From the NCBI RefSeq assembly GCF_003719195.1, contig NZ_CP024996.1, positions 1,054,001 through 1,118,000 of the forward strand: a stretch of DNA of 64,000 bases, in the 5' to 3' direction. The DNA comes from Herbaspirillum rubrisubalbicans (GTDB lineage: Bacteria; Pseudomonadota; Gammaproteobacteria; Burkholderiales; Burkholderiaceae_D). Positions within the stretch are counted from its first letter, which is position 1. Every line of letters begins with the position of its first letter. Under the pieces are notes generated by a model that did not search any database, was not told where the DNA came from, and saw nothing but the letters and a program-made list of their open reading frames with translations. This document shows positions 3,251-4,800 of this stretch, one piece after another. Made by a program: the position numbers and the translations under genes.

Positions 3251-4546
3251 TCAGAGGTCCAGGTCTTCCGCAGGGAAGTCGTTTGGCCCCAGCGTAGCAG
3301 GCACGGCCCACAGGGCATCGCGCAGGGAACGCTGGACCTGGTTCTCCACCCCCAGCAGGGTGGCAAAGATGGCCATGCGCACCGGCACGCCGTTATCGGT
3401 TTGCCGGAAGATCGCCAGGCGCGCATCGCCATCCAGGTCGGTATGCAGATCGTGCGCGCCGGGCCGGCTGTCGCGCGGCAGGGGATGCATCACGATGATA
3501 TCGGGCCGGCCATGCTGGTCGACCAGTTTCTTATTGATCTCGAAGGCGGCCAGGAAGTCATCGATCTTCTCGCCGGTGAGGCGTTCGCGCTGGATGCGGG
3601 TGGTGTAGATCACATCGGCGTCGGGCAGCGCATGGGCCAGCACATCGGTCGACGTGACGGTGTGGCCGCGGGCAGCGATACGCTTGACGATCTCTGCCGG
3701 CATCTCCAGCGAGGGCGGCGAGACCAGGGTGAAACGCATGTTTCGGTACAGCGACAGCAGCTTGATCAGGGAGTGCGCGGTGCGACCGTATTTCAGGTCG
3801 CCGGTGATGACGATGTGCGCCCCATCGACCAGCTTGCCCAGGCGCGAGAATTCGCGCTGCACCGTATAGAGGTCGATCAAGGCCTGGGTCGGATGTTCGC
3901 CCGCGCCATCGCCACCATTGATCAGCGGCACCTGCGTGGCCGCCGCGAACTGCGCCACCGATCCCTGCTCGGGATGACGCACCACGATCACATCGGCATA
4001 GCCGCTCACGGTGCGGCTGGTATCGGCGATGGACTCGCCCTTGGCCATGGAGGAATAGGTGAACCCGGTCGTATCGCACACCGAGCCGCCCAGGCGCATG
4101 AAGGCCGAGGCGAAGCTCAGGCGGGTACGGGTGCTGGCCTCGAAGAACAGATTGGCCAGCACCGCCCCCTCCAGCACCCGCGACACCTTGCGGCGCCGGG
4201 CAATGGGTTGCATGACGTCGGCCAGCATGAAGAGGTGCTCGGCCGAGTCGCGGCTGAACTGGTCCACCGACAGCAGGTGGCTGAGACGCCCGAAGGGCTC
4301 GGGGGTGGCGGTGCTTGCTGCGGTGGCCTCTGCAATTGCCGACCCGCCCGGATGGCTGGCCGCCAGGATCTCGGAAATGAAGCGCCTGGCCATTTCCGGC
4401 ATGGCGCGGAATTCGCCGGAGTCCTCGGGCAGCAGCCAGGTGTCCAGCGCCCGCTTGGTGCAGCCGATGCGCTGGGCCAGGCTTTCCCGGGTCAGGTTGA
4501 GGATGCGCATTGCGTCGCGCAGGAAGACTTGTTGGGGCAGGTTCAT
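3251..4546 (-). CDS. pyrB: Aspartate carbamoyltransferase with N-terminal helix-turn-helix
   Basis: 431 residues, about 120 longer than the roughly 310-residue catalytic chain of E. coli. Residues about 90-431 are a complete ATCase: FFEASTRTRLSFASAF (STRTR at 138-142), KGES at 169-172, GDGAGEHPTQALIDLY (HPTQ at 218-221), GDLKYGRTAHSL and MHPLPRD; all carbamoyl-phosphate ligands I know are present. Residues about 10-60 (AMRILNLTRESLAQRIGCT, then KRALDTWL) look like an XRE-type DNA-binding helix-turn-helix, followed by an Ala/Ser/Thr linker. The start has no Shine-Dalgarno, and a promoter can be drawn that gives a leaderless transcript. A palindrome sits in that promoter. Convergent with gabR; no other pyr gene is nearby. 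Confidence 0.85.
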   Translation of the reverse strand: MNLPQQVFLRDAMRILNLTRESLAQRIGCTKRALDTWLLPEDSGEFRAMPEMARRFISEILAASHPGGSAIAEATAASTATPEPFGRLSHLLSVDQFSRDSAEHLFMLADVMQPIARRRKVSRVLEGAVLANLFFEASTRTRLSFASAFMRLGGSVCDTTGFTYSSMAKGESIADTSRTVSGYADVIVVRHPEQGSVAQFAAATQVPLINGGDGAGEHPTQALIDLYTVQREFSRLGKLVDGAHIVITGDLKYGRTAHSLIKLLSLYRNMRFTLVSPPSLEMPAEIVKRIAARGHTVTSTDVLAHALPDADVIYTTRIQRERLTGEKIDDFLAAFEINKKLVDQHGRPDIIVMHPLPRDSRPGAHDLHTDLDGDARLAIFRQTDNGVPVRMAIFATLLGVENQVQRSLRDALWAVPATLGPNDFPAEDLDL

Positions 4547-4581
4547 GCGCGTATGGTATACGCAATGCGTATTTAATTCAA
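4546..4581 (-). promoter_or_regulatory. Candidate leaderless promoter of the HTH-ATCase gene
   Basis: On the minus strand TTGAAT (4576-4581) is followed after exactly 17 bases by TACCAT (4553-4558), each 4 of 6 to the sigma-70 consensus. Transcription would begin at about the A of the ATG at 4546, matching the absence of a ribosome binding site. A second TTGAAT lies at 4586-4591. Confidence 0.4.
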
Positions 4582-4604
4582 ATTAATTCAAATTAAAATA
4601 CGCA
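4558..4604. promoter_or_regulatory. Palindromic operator cluster upstream of pyrB
   Basis: ATACGCA-A-TGCGTAT at 4558-4572 is a 15-base palindrome with a single central base. A third copy of the half-site, ATACGCA, lies at 4598-4604, so the 4563-4607 segment is itself a longer imperfect inverted repeat around a tandem AATTCAAATT pair (4575-4594). The palindrome exactly fills the spacer of the candidate promoter. The natural candidate binder is the helix-turn-helix of the protein it precedes; that is inference. Confidence 0.55.
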
Positions 4605-4800
4605 TTGTGTCGTTGTTGCGTGTTTTGTCTGATGTCACCACGCATTTTCGTCCCCACGATGAAAGTCTTTCTGCCGCCAGGGGCTGGTTGTGGCCCCTCG
4701 TGCTGCCTAACATTTAGCTTCATATCGCGCTACGAGGCCAAGCCGGTGCGCAGCGTGTATCGCCTGTGCCCATCTTTTTGCTTCATATAAAAGGATTTTC

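Follow-up and report, generated by a model that had tools for sequence, protein, structure and literature searches.

A helix-turn-helix aspartate carbamoyltransferase as a probable autoregulator acting through a conserved palindrome at its own promoter

Aspartate carbamoyltransferase (ATCase) is a textbook allosteric enzyme. The locus described here raises the question of what an ATCase gene gains from an N-terminal extension that resembles a helix-turn-helix (HTH) domain, and whether that domain reads the palindrome lying directly upstream of the gene. We analysed a stretch of 64,000 nucleotides (the window), corresponding to positions 1054001-1118000 of a single-contig 5.6 Mb genome, and compared the HTH-ATCase locus with its relatives in other genomes (Table 1).

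Table 1. Features of the HTH-ATCase locus, in positions of the window.
Feature	Position	Strand	Evidence
HTH-ATCase gene, 431 aa	3251..4546	-	ORF; NF008853 profile; full-length relatives at 61-98% identity
ATCase catalytic domains, residues 89-400	3347..4282	-	PF02729 at 90-230 and PF00185 at 242-396
Low-confidence linker, residues 66-88	4283..4351	-	pLDDT <50 at 66-88
XRE-like HTH domain, residues 1-65, helices 4-16, 20-27, 31-38, 51-64	4352..4546	-	predicted structure
Presumed recognition helix, residues 31-38	4433..4456	-	third helix of the model; role inferred from fold
Candidate sigma-70 promoter TTGAAT-17-TACCAT, leaderless-type	4553..4581	-	layout in 5/5 Herbaspirillum-like members
Primary candidate operator ATACGCAATGCGTAT, 13-bp core 4559-4571	4558..4572	.	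single exact genome copy; kept upstream of HTH-ATCase genes
Possible second upstream operator TACGCATTGTGTC, 2/10 mismatches, 40 bp from first	4599..4611	.	weak alone

The protein and its upstream region in the window

The protein matched the NCBIfam model NF008853 (PRK11891) with 683.5 bits (cut-off 560), and the match ran from residue 1 to 427 over model positions 1-427 of 430; thus, the N-terminal extension belongs to the family model. Pfam recognized two carbamoyltransferase domains only, both inside residues 90-396. Every ATCase motif was found in the window's protein (STRT, SSMAKGES, RHP, HPTQ, YGRT, TRIQRER and HPLP), and STRT, K169, RHP, HP.Q, R255, TR.Q.ER and HPLPR were invariant across 37 aligned sequences. 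We take STRT, S..K, RHP, HPTQ, YGRT, R.Q.ER and HPLP to be the substrate-binding motifs of ATCases. FxExSTR, RxQxER and HPLP are given as ATCase motifs in PMC4581275. Judged by its sequence, the protein is a complete ATCase whose catalytic motifs are intact. The nearest relatives with a name, at 80-81% identity to the gene, belong to records labelled Herbaspirillum. Its neighbours in the window were gabR/gabT-like genes and a CBS-domain-type membrane protein (translations read, no search), and it was found neither beside pyrR nor within the pyrR cluster.

The original prediction of about 60 XRE-like HTH residues ahead of the catalytic ATCase was borne out by the N-terminal ~65 residues, which are covered by NF008853 and are predicted to form four helices (mean pLDDT 88.1) in a compact all-helical HTH fold like that of solved members. 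Residues 32, 34, 35 and 37-39 were invariant or almost so in 34 sequences. The domain matched Pfam HTH_3 weakly (12.7 bits, cut-off 23), and among seven stand-alone relatives that were scanned P0219 alone exceeded this cut-off, with 27.0 bits. Foldseek with the HTH domain returned nothing below E 0.001, and the best solved-structure match was Aca1, presumably an autoregulator, at 14% identity. Aca1 of Pseudomonas phage JBD30 (PDB 7vjm, 7c0g) is a small HTH protein solved on palindromic DNA; unlike the HTH-ATCase, it is the product of a phage gene and has no enzyme domain. The full-length model of our protein had a mean pLDDT of 71.9 and was left out of quaternary claims.

The palindrome ATACGCANTGCGTAT was present as an exact copy in the 5.6 Mb genome at 4558-4572 only. 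With up to two mismatches, the 15-mer was found at nine forward-strand places, compared with five for a reversed-pattern control, while the exact 13-mer pattern was found elsewhere in the genome inside two other ORFs only. The palindrome had been placed in the 17-base spacer of a candidate leaderless promoter, and this placement held. The promoter boxes (TTGAAT at 4581-4576 and TACCAT at 4558-4553, 17 bp apart) end 6 nt ahead of the ATG, and their spacer holds the whole 13-bp core, and the 15-mer minus one base. The corresponding pattern, TTGA[AT]T-17-TA[CT][CT]AT at 6-7 nt ahead of the ATG, recurred in 5/5 Herbaspirillum-like members, defined as the five distinct proteins with a core identity of at least 79% (L001, L004, L005, L006 and L020, window's own included), which supports the leaderless layout. 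L001, L006 and L020 had an operator copy with 0, 1 or 2 mismatches inside the promoter spacer, and in L004 and L005 the operator was located upstream of the -35 box, at -55 from the ATG.

A third half-site had also been reported at 4598. It proved to be part of the possible second upstream 13-mer, which is weak alone because 18 sites in the 64 kb window, the primary operator among them, have at most two mismatches. A second upstream site was also present in L006 and L020, two of the four other Herbaspirillum-like members. The stretch that separates the two operator copies (window 4573-4598) contains an AT-rich direct repeat, AATTCAAATTA (at 4575 and 4585); it is perhaps an UP element, and L020, a 92% identical relative, did not show it.

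Conservation of the palindrome with the HTH domain

We searched 392 genomes of the family (26 with the full fusion), 399 genomes of the order (26 matches, 22 over the cut-off), 150 genomes of family f31 (73 matches) and 200 genomes of family f4 (137 matches, 135 over the cut-off). After dropping 56 duplicates with identical first 300 residues, the 207 loci with an ATCase core were reduced to 151 loci, comprising 143 HTH-positive and 8 HTH-negative genes; gene fragments such as L047 and many matches without fetched loci were left out of this set. Start codons were chosen by script, and for the HTH-less proteins the start is a guess. The motif was first taken as a 15-mer and was loosened to TACGC-N3-GCGTA after the first comparisons, so this form was partly chosen on the same data.

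Within 80 bp upstream of the 143 HTH-positive genes, TACGC-N3-GCGTA was found with 0 mismatches in 95 genes, with one in 39, with two in 2 and with four or five in 7. Cumulatively, 134 genes had at most one mismatch and 136 at most two, vs 0.4% and 5.1%, respectively, of 2860 dinucleotide shuffles (0% exact, 4.7% with exactly two mismatches). The operator was found in none of the eight HTH-negative relatives, where the best site had three mismatches, and still at least three after widening the search to 150 bp. The prediction that the palindrome is conserved upstream of HTH-pyrB homologues is therefore well supported. All seven HTH-positive genes beyond two mismatches came from 0.8 Mb genomes of genus g189 and had eroded HTHs, with the lowest HTH scores of the set (32-57 bits vs at least 81 in the other 136). 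When the genes were clustered at 75% identity, every member had at most two mismatches in 12 out of the 15 clusters, and the other three clusters were those of reduced genomes. Base composition is a confounder here: upstream G+C was 12-25% in the seven eroded genes and in the HTH-negative L227 and L234, but never below 29% (median 47%) in the other 136 genes. The other six HTH-negative relatives had an upstream G+C of 31-60%, so base composition fails to explain their missing operator. The consensus of the aligned upstream sites was TAATATACGCA-NN-GCGTATAT, and the flanking columns carried little information.

The position of the operator bears on the direction of the putative control. In a simple consensus scan, run with no control, the operator overlapped the best-scoring promoter-like core in 114 of 136 genes, and the commonest -10 position (65/136) touched the left edge of the operator. 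This arrangement argues against activation, or a dual mode of regulation, by the HTH-ATCase at its own gene in place of repression. That reading draws on the more distant operators of L004 and L005, whose place is also fit for activation, and we consider it rather unlikely.

A putative second operator inside the gene and stand-alone relatives of the HTH

A further copy of the 13-mer was detected inside the coding sequence, between the HTH and the enzyme (ORF nucleotides 190-240, near nt +206). It was exact in 61 of the 143 genes and had one mismatch in 24 and two in 30, while 50-nt windows taken elsewhere in the coding sequence of these genes (2718 in all) gave 0 exact copies, 0.4% with one mismatch and 2.0% with two. 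The usual spelling was ACG CAN AGC GTA. For a codon test, 74 genes were chosen by the peptide T[QHPL][SRG]V, for which the valine was required and its codon left free. The aligned valine codon was GTA in 72 out of 73 cases, compared with at most 20.3% GTA at 15 other conserved valine columns, and both ACG and GC-GTA were kept in 69/74 genes. The peptide itself varied (TQSV in 60 genes, TQRV in 5, THSV in 4, TLGV in 2, THRV in 2 and TPSV in 1). A rare valine codon, GTA, that is almost always kept while the peptide varies points to selection on the DNA of the putative intragenic operator rather than on the peptide.

The upstream and intragenic operators were 230-261 bp apart in 84 out of 85 genes, and 281 bp apart in one. 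Helical phasing of the two was seen in the full set (85 genes), was weak after thinning at 95% (48 genes) and was gone at 90% (25 genes) and 85% (18 genes), and we did not retain it. The intragenic site was missing in all five Herbaspirillum-like members (best match in the window's gene, 5 mismatches); three of these five had instead the second, weaker upstream copy.

The same HTH domain was also found alone in 101 small proteins (48-116 aa, mostly ~72). We examined ten stand-alone loci: L009, L010 and eight from 49 matching plasmid records. A sister palindrome, TACTC-N3-GAGTA, was found beside the gene in 5/10 of these loci, namely in 5/5 close relatives and in 0/5 distant ones (L282-L286, 51-62% identical to L009), with the split into close and distant made post hoc. 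In L279-L281 (71-78% identical to L009) it was located 29-36 bp upstream of the HTH gene, and in L009 and L010 close to where a pair of nucleotidyltransferase/HEPN-like genes (by reading) starts, just before the HTH gene. Additional copies were found directly after the HTH gene in L010, L279 and L281. The palindromes of the fused and the close stand-alone genes have the same 5-3-5 layout and differ by one base per arm. This common layout suggests that it is the fused HTH that reads the ATCase operator, and the fusion likely descends from a stand-alone HTH that had a palindrome of its own.

The 72-aa HTH sites were L009:4117-5201, L010:790-1883, L279:1472-1735, L280:1469-1713 and L281:1459-1723. 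In L281, the HTH gene and its palindrome adjoin an annotated death-on-curing toxin gene. The stand-alone 72-aa HTH resembles a small autoregulator that serves mobile or toxin-antitoxin genes.

Physiology, alternative readings and a proposed mechanism

The enzyme had been proposed to act in pyrimidine synthesis without PyrR, which was wrong for the window's own genome: locus L002, ~0.55 Mb away, has pyrR in a row with a canonical pyrB and a gene read as pyrC-like, and the HTH-ATCase is thus a second ATCase in this genome. Among 41 scored genomes, the HTH-ATCase was the sole match over the ATCase cut-off in 10 HTH-positive genomes belonging to 8 genera (G037, G487, G526, G580, G593, G622, G651, G707, G733 and G758), including genomes of 0.8 Mb and 1.2 Mb. 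PyrR was found in none of these ten (two weak hits, E 1e-5 or worse), and in 24 of the 27 two-ATCase genomes, the exceptions being G538, G574 and G680; G322 and G226, counted among the 27, each have one ATCase gene that is a fragment at a contig edge. Another four genomes (G403, G443, G450 and G493) had an HTH-less ATCase only and no strong PyrR hit, so PyrR loss tracks the loss of canonical pyrB and not the HTH alone. The pyrD gene was present in all ten sole-ATCase HTH-positive genomes (17/17 tested). Since it is the sole ATCase over the cut-off in these ten genomes, which also have pyrD, the fusion presumably serves pyrimidine synthesis there.

The same genomes weigh against the ~430-residue enzyme being a catabolic ATCase, engaged in the breakdown of carbamoyl-aspartate, with the HTH regulating catabolism. 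A second ATCase does stand beside a canonical one in the window's genome and in others, and PMC4581275 leaves open a catabolic role for one of two Burkholderia ATCases. We regard this reading as unlikely, while second copies may still be catabolic.

We also scanned 20 HTH-ATCase genomes with TACGCANNGCGTA and read by eye the neighbours at 27 of the loci found. Among the ORFs of these 27 loci, the HTH-ATCase was the only pyr gene noticed beside the site. The recurrent neighbours in f4 genomes were iclR/Bug/P450-like genes (iclR and Bug identified by BLAST among the loci, P450 by reading). In genomes without a detected HTH-ATCase, 20/30 had any match, and among ten loci that were read the site was again found in the same iclR/Bug/P450-like neighbourhood. 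We therefore set this neighbourhood aside as a candidate pyrimidine regulon and took the site there to be that of an independent regulator; a look-alike of the ATCase operator apparently serves an unrelated regulator. The 13-bp palindrome was located beside iclR-type and/or Bug/TctC-like genes in L109, L128, L131, L135, L138 and in L260, L261, L264, L265, L266, L276 and L278 (near position 1500).

Several results count against autoregulation: the window's own HTH scored below the Pfam cut-off and had no Foldseek match under E 0.001; its gene has no intragenic site and a weak second upstream one; the distant stand-alone HTHs have no sister palindrome; helical phasing disappeared on thinning; the operator of L004 and L005 is placed where activation would also fit; the enzyme is a second ATCase in the window's genome; the motif is not exclusive to the HTH-ATCase, as shown by the iclR-type genes; and the genome-wide palindrome count was not above the reversed-pattern control overall. 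It is nevertheless quite improbable that another transcription factor binds the palindrome and that the HTH of the ATCase is vestigial or serves assembly only. Elsewhere the same palindrome does have an iclR-type regulator gene next to it, also where no HTH-ATCase was detected, but that IclR (at least 60% identity) was found in no more than 5 of the 33 HTH-ATCase genomes that were tested, and the window's own genome lacked it. The absence of the operator at 8/8 HTH-less relatives and at 7/7 eroded HTHs, and the sister palindrome of the close stand-alone relatives, which has the same 5-3-5 layout, also speak against it. That the palindromes are RNA hairpins for attenuation or translation control, and not protein-binding DNA, is highly improbable and was set aside: a hairpin could form from the 5-bp arms and 3-nt loop, and the intragenic copy is transcribed, but arm bases 3, 5, 9 and 11 had a frequency of 1.0 as printed in the 136 aligned upstream sites, fixed rather than covarying and with no compensatory change, and the upstream copy mostly overlaps the presumed -10 box, so it would not be wholly transcribed.

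From these comparisons of sequences, the HTH-ATCase is very probably an autoregulating trigger enzyme that controls its own gene through the 13-bp palindrome TACGC-N3-GCGTA over its own promoter, most likely by repression. Enzyme motifs and a DNA-binding domain were found in one chain together with a conserved likely operator, as expected from a trigger enzyme. Control of its own gene is strongly supported by comparison: the operator is kept with the HTH, absent without it, gone where the HTH is eroded, repeated inside the gene in most lineages and matched by a sister palindrome at five close stand-alone HTH relatives. Of the self-repressing enzyme in the original prediction, control of its own gene through the fused HTH and the operator thus stands, while repression is deduced from position only and the sensing of carbamoyl phosphate, aspartate or nucleotides stays a proposal.

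The catalytic chains of ATCases form trimers. The HTH would bind the palindrome overlapping its own promoter, and the bound enzyme would block transcription, a direction suggested by the position of the site. Since the chains are trimeric, one enzyme particle would carry several HTHs and might bind two operators simultaneously, the second being inside the coding sequence in most lineages and upstream, in its weaker form, in three of the five Herbaspirillum-like members. Enzyme beyond need would sit on the operators. Following the logic of the pathway, occupancy of the catalytic domain, by carbamoyl phosphate first and then by aspartate, may alter the particle, and the DNA would be released once carbamoyl phosphate builds up. 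As a tentative model, with somewhat less than an even chance of being right, the ATCase oligomer could be a metabolite-gated multivalent repressor that loops the gene between its operators and is opened by carbamoyl phosphate/aspartate, and that has taken over from PyrR the control of the committed step of pyrimidine synthesis in some Burkholderiales lineages.

PutA, a proline dehydrogenase, has its own kind of DNA-binding domain and a redox switch. In Salmonella, PutA is both an enzyme and the repressor of the put operon (PMC6978683); as would be the case for the HTH-ATCase, a metabolic enzyme and a direct transcriptional repressor of related genes are combined in one polypeptide. Our protein differs in being an ATCase with an XRE-like domain and, in most lineages, a second operator in its gene. 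BzdR, in which an XRE HTH is fused to a shikimate kinase-like domain (PMC3602430), has the same order of N-terminal XRE HTH, linker and C-terminal enzyme fold; BzdR is no longer active as an enzyme and controls genes for benzoate degradation, whereas the HTH-ATCase has intact motifs, its apparent target is its own gene and several are the sole ATCase of the cell. PepA is a trigger enzyme at E. coli carAB that binds about 230 bp of DNA (PMC6245113) and, like the proposed HTH-ATCase, is a multimeric enzyme repressing a gene of the carbamoyl phosphate/pyrimidine pathway; it is an aminopeptidase that represses the gene of another enzyme and binds by basic patches, whereas here the pathway enzyme itself has an HTH. 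The class B ATCase of E. coli, in which catalytic trimers are linked by regulatory dimers (PMC7053772), shares the catalytic family, motifs and pathway step, and the HTH-ATCase has an HTH in its N-terminal extension. In searches of an open-access library (subscription papers and theses lying outside it), no title or abstract opening described an ATCase with a DNA-binding domain.

A 2015 review mentions a ~430-residue ATCase form in Burkholderia and leaves its role open (PMC4581275). Our comparison suggests such a role, namely that of a self-regulating enzyme that is the sole ATCase in the 10 scored genomes noted above. The intragenic site is a clear example of an operator maintained within coding sequence, where it fixes codons while the peptide drifts.

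Finally, reduced genomes provide natural knock-outs, in which the HTH is eroded or lost and the operator is lost. Nine genomes of 0.7-0.9 Mb have kept the ATCase, either with HTH and operator eroded (G758, G954, G982, G1005, G1025, G1058 and G1073, genus g189) or with no detectable HTH (G1043, also of g189, and G946). In G946, pyrD was found as two pieces in adjoining frames (C1:377734-378749), possibly a broken gene or an assembly error.
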